From: an uncultured Thermogutta sp.
GTDB taxonomy: Bacteria; Planctomycetota; Planctomycetia; Pirellulales; Thermoguttaceae
DNA: 33,441 bases
Assembly (NCBI GenBank): GCA_937128505.1
Contig: CAKZMM010000030.1
Coordinates: 1 to 33,441, forward strand
Reading direction: 5' to 3'
Within the stretch, counting starts at the first letter, position 1, and each line of letters opens with the position of its first letter. The position numbers were made by a program, and so were the translations under genes. The notes beneath the pieces are model-generated. The model saw nothing but the letters and a program-made list of their open reading frames with translations, had not been told where the DNA came from and ran no database searches. Shown one piece after another: positions 22,783 through 32,213 of the stretch.

Positions 22783-22845
22783 GGAGCCGCTCAAAACACC
22801 TTCTGGGAGTCGCTCAAAACATCGGTCGAATCGCTCGCTAATCGG
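22783..22845. repeat. 23-bp tandem repeat, third copy overlapping the M16 gene stop
   Basis: GGAGCCGCTCAAAACACC at 22783 and GGAGTCGCTCAAAACATC at 22806 are followed at 22829 by a diverged AATCGCTCGCTAATCGG. The third unit contains the last codons and stop of the minus-strand peptidase gene (stop at 22838-22840). Confidence 0.85.
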
Positions 22846-25573
22846 ACTGCGGGTTCGGCGAGGCGGTCACCAGGATATGCGGACTCGAGAAACACCGCCG
22901 GGCTGCTGCCACAATATCCTCGAGAGAAACCTGCTGAATTCGCTCGTCAAAACTTTCGTCGTAGTCGTAGCCGAGGCCGTACAGTTCATCCAAGGCCGCC
23001 TGCTGTGCCTGCTGTGCCAGAGTGGCTTTCTCTTGAGCATGGAGGGCGATGATCATTTTTTTTGCAGTCTCGAGCTCCTCAGGGGTGATTTGGCCTCGTA
23101 CAGCGCGATCTAAGTTCCGGGAAATCCGGTCGATAACCTCCCGGAGTTTCGTCGGATCAGTTTGTGCGATGACGACGAAATATCCCGGGGCCGGGCCGGT
23201 CATCTGCAAGGCATGCACCATGTAGACCAGTCCTGCCCCGCGTAACTCGTTATGGAGCCAGCCGCCAGGGTAGTTGTATCCCGAGGTGATGGCATCGAGC
23301 ACCGTCAAGGCGGCGAACGCTTTCGCATCGCGGATGCTTGTGCCGGGAAATCCCCACATGAGCATCCCCGTGGGTTTTCCGGTTTGCTTGTGCCGCCGGA
23401 TGGATTGCTCCGGGGCGTTCGGACGGTCGAACGCCAACGCCGGGGGCTGACTAGCGGGTGCCCACCGGCCGAAGGCCTTTTCCACCTGGTTTAGTGCTTC
23501 TTGGGGGTCGATGTCCCCATAGACAGTCACCACCGCGTTTTGCGGCATAAAGTATTGATGGTGATAAGCTCGGAGGTCCTCGACGGTTAACCGGCTGACG
23601 GTTCCCTCCTTCCCCCCGATCATGAGATGGTACGGGGACGCGGGCGGAAGATTATCGGCAAATAATTCTTGGATCTCTTGATGCGGATCATCGGCCCGAC
23701 GACGGATCGCTTGCAACATTAGATTCTGGGCCTTGGCGAACTCTTCTTCGGGAAGACTCGGGTTCTGGATGCATTGGGCAAGCAGGCGTAAAGCTTCTGG
23801 AAAATCTTCGCGAAGTACGGTGAGGTTGGCGGCGATTGTATTGCGGCCCGGGGTGATGCTCCAATCGGCACCGAGTCGGTCGAAGAATTCCGCGATCTCT
23901 GCGGCCGATAATTCGCCGGTTCCCTTATCCAACATCGCAGCCAGCAAGCCGGATCGGCCGGCCGTCTCGGGGCGATCGGCCAAGGCGCCTCCCAGGATGT
24001 ACGCTTGGACATTAACGATCGGCAAATGGGCCTGCCGTTTCAAGAGTACCCGTAGGCCGTTCGCCAACTGGACGCGTTGCACGGGTGTTTCCAGCCCGGC
24101 AAGACGTGCCCGCTCTTCCTGCGGGATTCCGCCTTTTGGAGCGATGACCACCCGTACCAATCGCTCCGGCAGGAAATACCGGCGGGCCGCATCGCGGATT
24201 TGTTCGGCGGTGACCTTCTGAAGTTCTTGAACGTAATGATCGTCGAACAGGGGATCACCTGCCGACAGAAACCCCTGAGCGAGGCTTTCCGCCGCGTTTT
24301 GCACCCGCTGGAGGGAGAAGAGTCGCTCGGTCACTTTTTGCTTTTTAGCTTTGGCGAGCTCTTCAGGACTGACCAATTCATCGCGAAGGCGGTAAACTTC
24401 CTCCAGCAGCGCTTGCTCCGCTTCCTTCCAGCGATCGGGCGCACAGACGGCAAAAACGCCGAACCACCCCCGCACAAACTGCGGCGTATAGCTGCTGGTG
24501 CGAACCGACAAGACCAATTGCCGCTGGTAGCGGAGCCGCTGGACCAACCGAGAGCTCTCCCCTTCGCTCAAAATGTAGGCCGCAAGGTCCAGGGGATAAA
24601 GGTCCGGATCTGCTAGCCGCACTGTGGGCCAAGCGAGGGCGAGGTCATAATTCGCCCCATCCATTTCCCGCCATGCTTCCCGGGGACTCAGCGGGAGCGG
24701 ATCATCGGGCATCGCAATAAAAAGTTCTTGGCCGCGTGGGGTTTCGCTCCAGTGCCGGGCCACCTCGGCCAAGATTTCCTCGGTTTTGACATCGCCCACG
24801 ACAACCATCACCAGATTATTGGGCACATAACGCTCGCGATAGAATTCGTAAATGGCTTCGCGGGTTGTACGGGCCAAAATGTCGGCGTAGCCGATAATCG
24901 GATGCCGGGCGGGATGCTCCAAGTACATCGTCTGGTTGAGCAGCTTCCACTGCACGCGGCGGCGGCTGACTTCACCATCGGCCAATTCCTGCTGGATGAC
25001 CTTCAATTCGCGATCAAATTCCTGCGGTTCCAGGACGCAGTGTTGCATGGCGTCGGAGACGAGCTCGATGGCCGTAGCCACCTGAGCCGCGGGGCAATCG
25101 ATGTAGTAGGCCGTCACATCGGTGGACGTGTAGGCGTTGGTGGCCCCCCCGAAAGAATCGATGATCCGCTCGATCTCTTTCTCCGTGCGATGTTTGGTGG
25201 TACCGCCGGAGACGACGTGTTCCAAGACATGGCTGAGGCCGGCTCCCAAGTGCTTCCCTTCGAAAGCACTCCCGGTATTGCGGACATAGCAGCGCACGGT
25301 GGCCACAGGCGCGGCGTGATTTTCCTGGATGATGACCGTCAGACCATTGTGTAGTGTGGCCAAAGTAACACCGCGCGGTAGATAGCGGAGACTGCTGACG
25401 CAAGCCGGAATTGCCTGGGGTGATGAATCGGTTACGGATTCCGCAGTACCGGTAACCTCGGCCGCCTGAGTTTCGATAAGCGCGAAGTTCCCCGCGACAC
25501 TAACCCCGATCAGAAGCACGCAAAAAAGCAGGCTTAATGGGGCCCGGAATGCACTGAAAAAAGTTTGCCGCAT
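22838..25573 (-). CDS. Two-domain M16 zinc metallopeptidase (pitrilysin family), exported
   Basis: A protein of about 911 residues with two M16 peptidase units in one chain. It would degrade peptides or process proteins outside the cytoplasm. Residues 1-36 form a signal peptide (hydrophobic core APLSLLFCVLLIGVSVAG). The N-terminal unit has the inverted zinc motif HVLEH (115-119) with acidic ligands downstream in EFDRELKVIQQELADGE. The second unit starts near LANGLRVLLKRQ and lacks HxxEH (GLLAAMLDKGTG at that place), so it is the usual non-catalytic partner. ATG 25573 has AAGG eight bases upstream. An in-frame ATG at 25675 with GAGGAA is a credible alternative and would add 34 residues before the signal. 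Confidence 0.93.
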   Translation of the reverse strand: MRQTFFSAFRAPLSLLFCVLLIGVSVAGNFALIETQAAEVTGTAESVTDSSPQAIPACVSSLRYLPRGVTLATLHNGLTVIIQENHAAPVATVRCYVRNTGSAFEGKHLGAGLSHVLEHVVSGGTTKHRTEKEIERIIDSFGGATNAYTSTDVTAYYIDCPAAQVATAIELVSDAMQHCVLEPQEFDRELKVIQQELADGEVSRRRVQWKLLNQTMYLEHPARHPIIGYADILARTTREAIYEFYRERYVPNNLVMVVVGDVKTEEILAEVARHWSETPRGQELFIAMPDDPLPLSPREAWREMDGANYDLALAWPTVRLADPDLYPLDLAAYILSEGESSRLVQRLRYQRQLVLSVRTSSYTPQFVRGWFGVFAVCAPDRWKEAEQALLEEVYRLRDELVSPEELAKAKKQKVTERLFSLQRVQNAAESLAQGFLSAGDPLFDDHYVQELQKVTAEQIRDAARRYFLPERLVRVVIAPKGGIPQEERARLAGLETPVQRVQLANGLRVLLKRQAHLPIVNVQAYILGGALADRPETAGRSGLLAAMLDKGTGELSAAEIAEFFDRLGADWSITPGRNTIAANLTVLREDFPEALRLLAQCIQNPSLPEEEFAKAQNLMLQAIRRRADDPHQEIQELFADNLPPASPYHLMIGGKEGTVSRLTVEDLRAYHHQYFMPQNAVVTVYGDIDPQEALNQVEKAFGRWAPASQPPALAFDRPNAPEQSIRRHKQTGKPTGMLMWGFPGTSIRDAKAFAALTVLDAITSGYNYPGGWLHNELRGAGLVYMVHALQMTGPAPGYFVVIAQTDPTKLREVIDRISRNLDRAVRGQITPEELETAKKMIIALHAQEKATLAQQAQQAALDELYGLGYDYDESFDERIQQVSLEDIVAAARRCFSSPHILVTASPNPQSD

Positions 25574-25716
25574 AAGAATGACCTTTTCTTGGGTGATGCA
25601 AAAGGTTTTCATCGATGAAATCGTTTTCTTTGCTGAGAACTCTTTCCGGATCCTTGCGAAGCTAAGCTGAGTCATGGTGTTCCTCGAATCCGGTACATGC
25701 ATTAAACGTTCAACAC

Positions 25717-25789
25717 GAGTTGAGAGGGTTGAAATACTGAGTTGAGTCTGTTCACATTCTTTGCCCATTGAACTCTTTGCCCCTTGCAC
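25717..25789. repeat. Two neighbouring repeats upstream of the M16 gene (22 bp and 16 bp)
   Basis: GAGTTGAG at 25717 recurs at 25739 (period 22). Then TCTTTGCCCATTGAAC (25758-25773) is directly followed by TCTTTGCCCCTTGCAC (25774-25789). Confidence 0.8.
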
Positions 25790-25828
25790 GACTTGCGTAA
25801 CCAGCAAGTCTCACCTCTGTTACGAGGG

Positions 25829-26973: not shown

Positions 26974-28773
26974 ATGGTGGCAGTCAAGCTCTCTCCTCAG
27001 GTGTCGGTTTCCGGTCAGCAGTCTTCTCGGCAGTCCAAGAAAGTGCAGTGGTTCGCGGGTTGTTTCGGATCATCGGCGCAGCGGCGCGGTGCGATTGTTG
27101 TTTTATCCTCCATCTTGATGCTGATGTTGGCCGGCATGGTCGCTCTTTCGGTGGACTTGGGGTATGTCTACACGATTCAGACGGAGCTAAAACGGGCGAC
27201 GGACGCCGCCGCTTTGGCCGGGGCAGGTGCCCTCATTGAAGGTCCGGAAGCGGCCTACTTTCGCGCCGCCGACTTCCTGCTTCGCAACCCCGTCGGTTCC
27301 AGGATTCTTATCGAGGATGAAAACCGCACGCAGCGAATCGAGCAATGGCTCGCCGAGCATCCAGATGAATTTGAGTGCGCCGTGGGCCATTGGAATCCGA
27401 CTACCCGTACTTTCACGGAGAGTACCGATTTACCGTCCACCGTTCGGGTTGTAACGGCGTACCGAGCTGCGCCGCTATTTTTTGCCCGGGTTTTCGGATA
27501 TGACCAAGTGGAGGTACGCGCGGAGTCCATTGCGCGCTATCAGCCGCGAGACATCGTGTTGGTTTTGGATTTTTCTGCCTCGATGAACGACGACAGCGAG
27601 CTGCGGCGAATCAGCGAATTCGGCGAGCAGTGGCGACCGTGTGTTGAAGAAAGCTTGTACCAGATTTGGCAGGACCTAGGGTCGCCCGAGTACGGTACAC
27701 TTCCTTTCGCTCCCGATTACGTCACGCTTGTAGGCCTTGCACCCACCCGCGGCTGCCAGCCCCAAATTCATGTGAAATTTCTCGAATACGAAAGGAAAGT
27801 CTGGGTTCAATCTACGCTAGAGCTCTCTAATGTGGTGGTACAGTACTCGGATGGCAGCCGCGTGCGTTTTGACAACCTCTGTGGCACGAGCGGCACTTTC
27901 GGCAGTGGGTCCAAACAAATCGAACGTGTCTGGGTAAAATCCGGATGCAATGAAAGTGGCGAAGGGCCCGGTTACGGTGAGCGTTTCGAGCGATCTTGGA
28001 CCAACGACAATGCCCGGATCAAGAGTTGGTTCGGCCTGACTTGCGTCCCGTATCCTTATCCATCCGGCAGTTGGGACGAATACATCAACTACGTCAAGTC
28101 TAGCTCGTACATTCATGCGGCGAAATACCGCAAAAAATACGGCTTGATGACGCTGATCAACTACTGGCTGGAGCAGAAGCCAAAGTTCTCCGAAACCCCC
28201 GATTTATGGCGGACCAGTGCGGAACCAGTTTATAGCCTCAAGCAGGCCGTGGAGGTTTTCGTGGAACATCTGGGCCGGGTCGATTGCGGCGACCGGTTGG
28301 CTTTGGCAATTTATAATTCGTCGTCTGGATGGGGATTGCTCGAACACCCGTTTACCGATGATTACTCCGTGATCTCTTCGATCGTGCAACAGCGGCAAGC
28401 CGGTCATTATGACCGATATACCAACATCGGCGCGGGAATTCAGCAGGGTTGGATGCATCTGGATGCCCAGGGACGCGCCGGGGCCAAGAGAATCATCCTG
28501 CTCATGACCGATGGTTGGGCCAACCGTCCGCCGAGTAATCCGCGAGGCTTTGCCCTGGAGCAAGCGCAGATTGCCGCGAGCAAGAATTACACGATTATGA
28601 CAGTCAGCTTCAGCATCGAGGCGGATACCGAACTCATGGAGGAAATCGCCCAGATGACCGGCGGCGAGCATTTCAATGTGCCGGGCGGTAGCTCCGTCCA
28701 GGAATATCGCGAAGAACTGATCTCCGTTTTCCGAAGACTGGCTGACGACCGCCCGCTGGTGTTGGTCAAATAA
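26974..28773 (+). CDS. TadG-like membrane protein with von Willebrand factor A domain carrying a large insertion
   Basis: A 599-residue protein. Residues 37-85 match the N-terminus of TadG/Flp-pilus-assembly proteins: RRGAIVVLSSILML, a single membrane helix, then SVDLGYVYTIQTELKRATDA. The rest should be outside the membrane. A von Willebrand A domain follows with metal-site (MIDAS) residues DFSAS (199-203), Thr483 in YTNIGAG and Asp513 in LMTDGWA, so metal-dependent ligand binding looks intact. Between the first MIDAS motif and the next core strand lie about 200 extra residues (about 210-412) with four or more Cys and a beta-rich stretch (VVVQYSDGSRVRFDN). TadG-type proteins take part in surface adhesion or pilus systems. 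AGGAG at 26961-26965 sets the start. No other tad genes are nearby. Confidence 0.88.
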   Translation: MVAVKLSPQVSVSGQQSSRQSKKVQWFAGCFGSSAQRRGAIVVLSSILMLMLAGMVALSVDLGYVYTIQTELKRATDAAALAGAGALIEGPEAAYFRAADFLLRNPVGSRILIEDENRTQRIEQWLAEHPDEFECAVGHWNPTTRTFTESTDLPSTVRVVTAYRAAPLFFARVFGYDQVEVRAESIARYQPRDIVLVLDFSASMNDDSELRRISEFGEQWRPCVEESLYQIWQDLGSPEYGTLPFAPDYVTLVGLAPTRGCQPQIHVKFLEYERKVWVQSTLELSNVVVQYSDGSRVRFDNLCGTSGTFGSGSKQIERVWVKSGCNESGEGPGYGERFERSWTNDNARIKSWFGLTCVPYPYPSGSWDEYINYVKSSSYIHAAKYRKKYGLMTLINYWLEQKPKFSETPDLWRTSAEPVYSLKQAVEVFVEHLGRVDCGDRLALAIYNSSSGWGLLEHPFTDDYSVISSIVQQRQAGHYDRYTNIGAGIQQGWMHLDAQGRAGAKRIILLMTDGWANRPPSNPRGFALEQAQIAASKNYTIMTVSFSIEADTELMEEIAQMTGGEHFNVPGGSSVQEYREELISVFRRLADDRPLVLVK

Positions 28774-28816: not shown

Positions 28817-30199
28817 CTATTTCTGACCCGGTGCTTGTCGCTTGCTCCACGGGTAATCGCGCTTGACTACTTGAAGTTCGATAAATCGCACGAGGATCGC
28901 TTCCACGTTCAACTGCGGCACCCCCAGCAGGCTTGTCCCCTGGAGTTTGGTTCCCAATTGACCGAAATACAGCGTCTTTTGGTTGGCGGGGAGATCGGCA
29001 TCCCCCGGCCGAGCACGTTCCAAAATCGCATAGACCCGTTTGGCATCCGAGAGGAACCGCGACTCGGCCTGTCCCACCAGCATCAAGAGGGGGAGTTGCC
29101 CGCGGATTACCGGGTGATTTAATGCCGGTTGGAGATCCAGCCCCCGAAAATTCCACGGGGGCGAAATCAACACCAGGGCCTTCACATCTTGCCCCTGCTT
29201 GACACCCGGATATTGGGGCCAGCTCCAGTCTAGTCGAGCCCAATTCAGGGCAACGGCCGCGCCCATCTCGGCCCCGATGATAGTGAGCTTCTCGATATTT
29301 ACCGCTTCGGAATTGTTCTTTTCCACCAAGAACCGTTTCCAGGTTTCCATGTCGTATTGAACCATGGCGGCGAAATCAGCCGGACCAAGCCGTTCGGCAT
29401 CGAGGGCATCTCCGCCCCCTCGCGGCCCCAATCGCCGCCGACTCTGCCCATGCCCCCGCAAATCCGGGGCCAAGATCGCAAATCCTTGGTCCTGCAAAAC
29501 GGGGATCAGCGGGGCGAAGTCGCTGCGGCTTCCTTTCCACATGTGCAGTACGACCACGGGAACTGCCTCTTTGCCCGAATGGCTCGGATAGAAGGTCGCA
29601 TGTAATTCGACGCCGCCCCCCGGTTCCAAGGTCCGTTGGACCACTTCCTCCGGAGTAGGCGGGGGTTTTTTCTTCGGCGGAGCGGGCGTGGGCGGTGCCG
29701 GTTTGGGAGGCTGCGAAGCCTGTCCCGACGGAGCGGCCCCCGGCCCTGGCTGAGGGCGGGCTTGACCGGGGTTGGCCGCAGGGGGAGTAGCTGGCTGAGC
29801 CCCCGGCGGCGATGGCTGCGGTTGTGCCCGAGGTTGCGGTGTCGGTTGCCCCTGCGGTGGTATCTGGGGTTGTGACACAGGCGGAAGCGGTATCGGAAGC
29901 GGAGGAGAGTTGCCCAATGCTCCTGCTTGCGGCGGCACGGGTGGCGGCTGAGGAATCGGAGGTCCCCCCGGGTTCTGTGAATAAGCCGCACGGATCGCTC
30001 CATTCCAGCACAGCAATCCCGCAAGCGCAAGTATCGCTAAGAGGGAAATCCCAAGGAGCCGTTTTCTGCGATAGGCCCCGCCGCTCCAATTTCCCGGGAA
30101 ACCCATCCGCTGACGCAGTGCACTGGTGCGCGATGCCGCCCGGTCTCTTCTATTGAGCACCCAAAGCTCTTTCGACCAAGGGAAATGACTTTTTTCCAT
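28817..30199 (-). CDS. Membrane-anchored alpha/beta-hydrolase-fold protein with degenerate catalytic residues
   Basis: About 460 residues from ATG 30199 (the frame is open to 30370; the ribosome binding site is weak, and ATG 30106 is another choice). A membrane helix at 48-66 is followed by a Pro/Gln-rich linker of about 110 residues (75-185) and then an alpha/beta-hydrolase fold (200-445). The fold is recognised from VPVVVLHMWKGSRSDF, then GFAILAPDLRGHGQSRR. The nucleophile elbow reads GAEMGA (309-314), with Glu311 where Ser is expected in GxSxG. The usual acid position reads LMLVGQAESRF, and the region that normally has the catalytic His reads KLQGTSLLG. It may therefore be a binding protein rather than an esterase. 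The linker suggests reach into the periplasm. Confidence 0.82.
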   Translation of the reverse strand: MEKSHFPWSKELWVLNRRDRAASRTSALRQRMGFPGNWSGGAYRRKRLLGISLLAILALAGLLCWNGAIRAAYSQNPGGPPIPQPPPVPPQAGALGNSPPLPIPLPPVSQPQIPPQGQPTPQPRAQPQPSPPGAQPATPPAANPGQARPQPGPGAAPSGQASQPPKPAPPTPAPPKKKPPPTPEEVVQRTLEPGGGVELHATFYPSHSGKEAVPVVVLHMWKGSRSDFAPLIPVLQDQGFAILAPDLRGHGQSRRRLGPRGGGDALDAERLGPADFAAMVQYDMETWKRFLVEKNNSEAVNIEKLTIIGAEMGAAVALNWARLDWSWPQYPGVKQGQDVKALVLISPPWNFRGLDLQPALNHPVIRGQLPLLMLVGQAESRFLSDAKRVYAILERARPGDADLPANQKTLYFGQLGTKLQGTSLLGVPQLNVEAILVRFIELQVVKRDYPWSKRQAPGQK

Positions 30200-30340: not shown

Positions 30341-30490
30341 GGCAAGAAGTCGATGCTCTGGCAAAAACACTATGCTCCGGCAAAAAAACTACGCTTTGGC
30401 AGAAAGACTATGCTCGGCACGAAGACTTTGCTTTGCCAAAACACAAAACACTATGCTTTGGCAAAAAACTGTGCTTCGGCAAAAAGACCT
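30341..30490. repeat. 19-bp tandem array, about eight units
   Basis: Units start at 30341, 30360, 30379, 30398, and so on to about 30490, with consensus GGCAAAAANACTATGCTYY. Most are 18 or 19 bp; one near 30435-30459 is enlarged to about 25 bp by an extra CAAAACA. Copies are contiguous, and each differs from the consensus at two to five places. Confidence 0.93.
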
Positions 30491-31547: not shown

Positions 31548-32213
31548 CTAGTACATGGCGGCGGCATCCGCCGCAAATAAAGCCCGGGGATCGTGGGGAT
31601 AGAAATACCGCCCCAAATGGTCGGCCACTACCCGAATGAAGTCTCGGCGAAAATCGGCCTCGCGGATCTCGGCGGCAGAAACCACGTGGTTCGGCGGATG
31701 AAGAATGAGCGGAGGACGCCGCTCGAAAACGACTTCGCCCGTCTGACAGTCGAAGACCCGCAACGTCAGATCCGCTCGACCCTGGTAAATCGTTTGCCCC
31801 TTATGCAGCCGAAAATCATTGAGGTCGATGGCGACAAGCATCTCGGCCGATAAAGCCTGCCCCACTTCTACGTAGTCGTTCCAGGTATGGACATCCATCC
31901 ACTCTTCCACCCGTTGAGGGGGGATGATCTCAATACCTTTGACATTTTGCTGGAGCAACCGAGCGAGTGCTCGGGCCAAATCCTTAGCCACATTCGGATA
32001 GGCATAAATCGATTGGGTGGAGGCGGTGCATACGACGGCGACCCGCTTTTCCCGCAACCCGTTGAATTGGGCCGGCACATTCGGTCCTTTGATCAGCCAG
32101 GCGGCGGTGGCCAAGGCACTGGCGCAGCCCGGGGCGATGATCAGCAAGACAAGCCCCAGCCCGGCAAGGCCAGCCCATAGCCTGCGTGCAGAAGTGCCGC
32201 GATCAAACTGCAT
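31548..32213 (-). CDS. Exported probable lipoprotein of unknown function
   Basis: A 221-residue protein with an N-terminal signal (RRLWAGLAGLGLVLLIIAPGC). Cys30 follows an APG, a weak but possible lipobox, so a lipoprotein is likely but not certain. The mature part opens with REKRVAVVCTASTQSIYAYPN and a helix KDLARALARLLQQ, then VEEWMDVHTWNDYVEVGQALSAEMLVAIDLNDFRL in outline. This order of beta strand, helix and a 'location of activity' strand recalls the periplasmic nucleotide-independent folds of the TolB-N / CsgG-like / LptE-like type, but no family can be named. CCAGGAG about nine bases upstream supports ATG 32213. The gene stands alone. Confidence 0.75.
   Translation of the reverse strand: MQFDRGTSARRLWAGLAGLGLVLLIIAPGCASALATAAWLIKGPNVPAQFNGLREKRVAVVCTASTQSIYAYPNVAKDLARALARLLQQNVKGIEIIPPQRVEEWMDVHTWNDYVEVGQALSAEMLVAIDLNDFRLHKGQTIYQGRADLTLRVFDCQTGEVVFERRPPLILHPPNHVVSAAEIREADFRRDFIRVVADHLGRYFYPHDPRALFAADAAAMY

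Follow-up and report, generated by a model that had tools for sequence, protein, structure and literature searches.

Gene layout, predicted fold and export signals

The window, by which we mean the whole 33,441-nucleotide stretch of contig CAKZMM010000030.1 from an uncultured Thermogutta sp. that was analyzed, carries on its minus strand an open frame of 460 codons plus a stop, the features of which are collected in Table 1. Immediately upstream of the gene, at 30341-30485, lies a degenerate tandem repeat with a unit of about 19 bases (GGCAAAAAGACTATGCTCT). A Tad-like pilus assembly protein with a VWA domain is encoded convergently with the hydrolase gene (26974-28773, plus strand), and the minus strand at 22838-25807 encodes a large M16 peptidase-like protein in which the M16 and M16_C models each match two stretches of one chain.

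Table 1. Window positions of the alpha/beta-hydrolase-like gene, its predicted parts and its recurrent neighbor C1
Feature	Position	Strand	Basis or remark
Gene of putatively triad-less alpha/beta hydrolase, 460 aa	28817..30199	-	Frame open upstream to GTG 30370; M32 (30106) is a candidate alternative start
Probable signal peptide, residues 32-74 (RRKR, hydrophobic core 49-63, AYS/Q)	29978..30106	-	Sequence and ortholog N-termini
Pro/Gln/Ala-rich linker, residues about 75-186	29642..29977	-	Sequence; length unconserved among orthologs
Alpha/beta-hydrolase domain, residues about 187-460 (modeled from 184)	28820..29641	-	Pfam, model, fold matches
Glu311 codon, nucleophile position	29267..29269	-	Bases and alignment
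Glu379 codon, acid column of active-type relatives	29063..29065	-	Alignment
Gln420 codon, catalytic His column (HGT in active-type relatives, QGT here)	28940..28942	-	Alignment
Neighbor C1, lipoprotein-like, 221 aa, PGC near N-terminus	31548..32213	-	Sequence; predicted fold, pLDDT 75.7

The predicted protein was matched by the Pfam model Abhydrolase_1 (2.7e-13; 50.6 bits against a cut-off of 25.8), and an AlphaFold2 model of residues 184-460, made with 25 relatives, reached a pLDDT of 96.3 and a pTM of 0.94. When VIA-align was run on the best 1000 chains by Foldseek rank, the thioesterase 7d78 scored highest (Z 25.4, rmsd 2.1 over 212 residues), and the lipase TTL gave Z values of 24.4-24.6. 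By Pfam, the AlphaFold model, Foldseek and VIA-align alike, the domain is thus predicted to have the alpha/beta-hydrolase superfamily fold with its nucleophile elbow, and the structure prediction and superposition on esterases proposed in the first-pass annotation bore out its view that the landmarks of the fold are kept. The elbow itself reads GAEMGA, within LTIIGAEMGAAVAL, with Glu311 inside it. Because Abhydrolase_1 matches and an alpha/beta-hydrolase domain is predicted, we regard this as a real nucleophile elbow and no chance string, and the earlier claim of a Glu-bearing elbow instead of GxSxG, together with the reading of IGAEMG from the bases near 29260-29285, agrees with the position of the Glu311 codon on the minus strand. 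PF12697 has six matches in the same genome, of which the other five have GxSxG and only this protein lacks it.

The N-terminal region is better explained by export than by anchoring. Because a hydrophobic N-terminal segment was above threshold in 29 of 32 orthologs, and an AxA-like cleavage site was found by a simple pattern in 23 of them (some doubtful, a few matches, including that of the window, lying inside or off the core), we favor export with cleavage over a permanent membrane anchor. The membrane helix of the first-pass annotation therefore stands as a hydrophobic stretch, at residues 49-63, but more likely represents the core of a signal peptide, for which AYS/Q, assigned by eye, is a candidate cleavage site. 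The Pro/Gln linker of about 110 residues that had also been described is present, with 39% Pro over the 114 residues counted, and it is no feature of the family: the stretch from core to domain spans 4 to 114 residues among the 32 orthologs, that of the window being the longest, and is at most 50 residues long in 23.

Catalytic positions across the family

The elbow, acid and His columns of the window's protein were placed by an alignment of 158 sequences. Before alignment we dropped 51 generic-hydrolase loci (L116, L119-L168), nearly all of which matched the N-terminal half only, and 38 of the remaining 196 were removed as duplicates, near-copies or rows without a domain match, leaving 125 rows from the class of the window and 33 others. 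A row was counted with the class if it came from the same class or order in the genome search or bore a planctomycete record title (the class of titled records being taken from the title), and L113, L115 and L117 were grouped with the other rows.

In this alignment Glu311 takes the place of Ser, while the acid column is occupied by Glu379 and the His column by Gln420. The acid column is Asp or Glu in all 18 relatives that have both Ser and His. One of these, L113, carries GASIGA, an Asp in QDDNYS and a His in GHGT, and in a weak second stretch found by phmmer its QDDNYS and GHGT align with the DD and HG of chloroperoxidase L, which presumably hold the catalytic acid and His of that enzyme. Because Glu379 occupies a column that is acidic in all 18, only the nucleophile and the His are clearly gone from this protein. 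To the first-pass annotation both the acid and the His position appeared lost; this is borne out for the His and is not supported for the acid, which is kept in 88 of the 125 class rows (Asp in 80, Glu in 8). A catalytic Ser-His hydrolase combines a Ser or Cys nucleophile with His and an acid, where this protein has E311 and Q420; an epoxide hydrolase or haloalkane dehalogenase has an Asp nucleophile, a His base and a second acid, where this protein has Glu at the elbow and Gln in the His column.

An initial census of 55 relatives plus the window gave Asp at the elbow in 26, Glu in 17, Gly in 11, and Arg and His in one each. Among the 125 non-duplicate class rows, the residue was Gly in 39, Glu in 38, Asp in 36, Ser, Pro, Lys and Gln in two each, and His, Asn, Arg and Cys in one each, so that Glu311, whose invariance had been put forward as a check, turned out to be variable. 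The His column holds His in only five class rows (L028, L098, L198, L199, L202), in which the elbow is Asp in L028, Lys in one and Gly in three, and the class rows with Ser (L075, L101) or Cys (L204) at the elbow are all without His. No row among the 125 has Ser and His together. Loss of the pair is, on this census, a trait of the family. As a separate observation, L075 has Ser at the elbow (GASLGA) and Gln at the His position and its sister row L043 bears Gly, a possible regain of Ser without catalysis.

Outside the class, 19 of the 33 rows have Ser, and 18 of these also have His and an Asp or Glu acid (17 from the phylum, plus L113). These active-type hydrolases from other classes of the phylum (L219, L226, L228, L244 and others, with L113) are the nearest relatives found; they share an LRGHGxS motif with the window's family and align with it over the domain. 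Their elbow (GASIGA or GASVGC), acid and HGT His, from which they would be expected to be active, are in contrast absent as a set from the window's family. L113, from a record titled Woesearchaeota, is a bacterial-looking serine hydrolase of the same family and perhaps comes from a misbinned contig. Two further outside rows, L115 and L230, have an Asp elbow with acid and His kept and are candidate Asp-nucleophile enzymes within a serine-hydrolase family.

Distribution, descent and constraint

In single-sequence searches the protein turned up in 35 of 40 genomes of near relatives, in 210 of 297 genomes of the class (with one match in nearly all rows listed) and in 94 of 392 genomes of the phylum, the window's own genome being counted each time. 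With a profile, 282 of the 297 class genomes matched, the window's own again included, although in 26 of the 282 (counted by eye) the best E value was above 1e-15 and the matches may be ordinary hydrolases. Ten of the 15 class genomes without a profile match come from the window's own order and are 94-99% complete. By these searches, the gene is common in the class and not universal.

A quick maximum-likelihood tree of 100 rows, with the trait columns excluded, took in every one of the 33 outside rows and 67 of the 125 class rows, chosen by hand to cover the spread; 47 of its 97 inner branches are unresolved and its root was placed for drawing only. All 67 class rows lie on one side of a branch with an SH-aLRT of 96, and every Ser-His row lies outside. 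The non-Ser rows L239 and L241 and the Ser row L221 adjoin the class in an unresolved position. Six rows with the family code f34 (L220, L222, L224, L225, L231, L233), which have GxG elbows and lack the His, group apart with support of 99 and probably represent an independent loss of the triad. Because the tree requires Ser and non-Ser to interchange at least 11 times, Ser appears to have been lost often in the wider family; neighboring rows also switch their elbow among E, D and G. The simplest reading is that the Ser-His pair was lost once, no later than the base of the class, where both the direction and the number of losses are what we infer from this tree.

The ratio dN/dS (NG86) was between 0.017 and 0.086 in eight of 12 ortholog pairs, three of which share one row, and the other four, including both pairs with the window, were saturated. 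Five of the eight usable ratios are rough because dS exceeded 1; the three pairs with dS below 0.8 gave 0.017, 0.086 and 0.074. Such low ratios imply that the gene is not decaying, and to judge from them some role outside the Ser-His reaction keeps it preserved. The protein thus has what characterizes a triad-less alpha/beta hydrolase, namely a fold that is kept, a nucleophile-His pair lost family-wide and a sequence under selection.

Residues were called family-specific if present in at least 70% of the family and at most 35% of the 18 active-type rows, the letter given being the commonest in the family: Q236, A241, F290, L300, N301, L305, W325, G336, D338, G376, L424, L425, I436, F439 and R454. 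G336 is a gap in all 18 active-type rows, and R454 is reached by only six of them. W451 is Trp in 113 of the 125 class rows, and few rows outside the class extend so far. By topology, that is, from strand and helix order in the model, whose last residues are less certain, N301, W325, D338, W451 and R454 would lie on the face away from the elbow, and G376, L424 and L425 on the pocket side; the five away-facing residues may form a new contact surface. The scaffold motifs H219, H250 and D283 are kept in 111, 116 and 125 of the 125 class rows, respectively. R248, H250, D283 and their neighbors are read as fold or ancestral residues because they are as conserved in the 18 active-type relatives, and a substitute triad of R248, H250 and D283 was rejected on the same ground, as it would be no new feature.

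Across 32 loci, the recurrent neighbors were C1 (16), SecDF (14), YajC (13), a VWA protein (12), YmdB (11), RNase Y (10), Tgt (10) and DUF2752 (7), counts to be read with the fact that some of the loci are too short to show every neighbor and that each cluster takes its name from a single representative, Tgt and TilS being recognized by the appearance of their sequence. In part of the loci, the gene sits between RNase Y - YmdB - DUF2752 - C1 and SecDF - YajC - Tgt, and SecDF is on the opposite strand in 13 of 14. Six loci of family f4 (L173-L178) have none of the recurrent neighbors. In the window only C1 is present, on the same strand about 1.35 kb upstream of the gene, and the contig ends 1.2 kb past it. 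A Pfam search of C1 gave no match; its PGC resembles a lipobox, and its predicted fold resembles FlgT, PelC, GNA1162 and CsgG, at modest confidence and as fold kinship only. The VWA protein beside the orthologs, of which one representative was scanned, differs from the Tad-like VWA protein of the window. Since only some of the 32 loci show the synteny, we rejected the neighborhood as proof of function; at most it hints at the cell envelope.

Interpretation and known pseudo-hydrolases

We consider it likely that the gene encodes an exported, non-hydrolytic alpha/beta-hydrolase protein that binds a protein or ligand in the cell envelope; from the data above we infer the export, the loss of hydrolysis and the binding. 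On this view an ancestor had a Ser-Asp/Glu-His triad, the Ser and His of which would have been lost no later than the base of the window's class; purifying selection would then have maintained the domain as a module for binding or scaffolding in the cell envelope. The product, which would probably be exported, would start with a signal peptide, continue with a Pro-rich spacer and end in an alpha/beta-hydrolase domain that lacks the Ser-His pair. The first-pass annotation had suggested a tethered binding protein, and binding is the better-supported half of that suggestion (no Ser-His pair in 125 rows, the modeled fold, purifying selection), while tethering is made doubtful by the signal-peptide-like segment. 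A binding domain held out from the membrane by the linker, which shares the binding with our preferred reading and differs in the tethering only, would suit the hydrophobic segment ahead of the Pro-rich stretch, but seems unlikely when 23 of 32 orthologs have a signal-peptidase-like site (doubtful matches included) and 23 of 32 leave at most 50 residues between segment and domain.

The remaining alternatives concern what became of the active site. A decaying pseudogene or a sequencing artefact would explain the lost catalytic residues and the few matches that are interrupted by a single stop, which in some cases may simply be where the gene ends; we rejected it as contradicted by dN/dS, and with open frames in many independent genomes and conserved family-specific residues its probability is negligible. 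The different chemistry with Glu that had been proposed was not borne out, with Gly at the elbow in 39 class rows, other residues in 12 and a His at the base in five. The variation in the column of Glu311 counts against a new Glu chemistry and led us to reject an invariant catalytic Glu; Glu311 is one of several replacements of Ser. The broader form of this idea is that the enzyme is active and uses Glu or Asp as its nucleophile, in the manner of an epoxide hydrolase or dehalogenase. It can point to the elbow, which is acidic (Asp or Glu) in 74 of 125 rows, to the acid column, which holds one of the two in 88, to L115 and L230, in which an Asp elbow, an Asp acid and His suggest that such a triad may exist nearby, and to the Asp-for-Ser substitution in epoxide-hydrolase candidates described in passages of PMC11878206. 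Yet only L028 among the five rows with a His base has an Asp elbow, and an elbow that is often Gly and alternates among E, D and G from one tree neighbor to the next makes it very improbable. An enzyme of lyase, isomerase or acyl-transfer type, using the old pocket without a triad, would be in keeping with the retained H219, H250 and D283, and alpha/beta hydrolases that act without a catalytic Ser exist, as passages of the same source (PMC11878206) mention. We nonetheless find it quite unlikely, as the 18 active-type relatives conserve R248, H250 and D283 just as well and the elbow, acid and His columns vary. Some residual or altered pocket function may persist, the elbow being acidic in 74 and the acid column kept in 88 of the 125 rows.

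Proteins of this kind are known. In NDRG3 of the NDRG family, the alpha/beta-hydrolase fold is kept, the triad residues are replaced and the protein is non-enzymatic, according to passages of PMC7022630; the NDRG proteins described there are human and have helices that block the pocket. The Ndr Pfam model matched neither the full protein nor the 36 family members scanned. DUF3530 (PF12048) is, like the window's family, bacterial and triad-less, but occurs in Pseudomonas, where its conserved neighborhood includes an outer-membrane assembly gene and its function is unknown; DUF687 and Arb2 are other triad-less alpha/beta hydrolases (passages of PMC11878206). Neither DUF3530 nor DUF687 (PF05095) matched any of 36 family members at 1e-3 or the full protein at 1. 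Neuroligin and other non-catalytic cholinesterase-like domains reuse an extracellular hydrolase fold for protein binding, as excerpts of PMC5943944 describe; neuroligins are animal adhesion proteins, and the likeness is one of a reused fold. No literature on the window's family appeared in open-access full text among the matches listed. So far as these searches reach, the pseudo-hydrolases described here are new as a family and known as a kind.

A more specific picture can be drawn, which we offer tentatively and think possible, if doubtful. An exported hydrolase would have abandoned catalysis early in the class and become a widely kept envelope protein that recognizes a partner via the surface opposite the old active site (N301, W325, D338, W451, R454), possibly linked to the export or outer-membrane machinery beside it in some genomes (SecDF-YajC, C1). 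Because Pfam calls the protein an alpha/beta hydrolase, it could be picked as an esterase candidate, and its sequence speaks against an esterase of the Ser-His type. The family may serve as a bacterial example of a class-wide change from enzyme to pseudoenzyme, with the active type persisting in sister classes. Planctomycete envelope biology is poorly understood, and the gene would supply it with a conserved, apparently unstudied and probably envelope-located protein.
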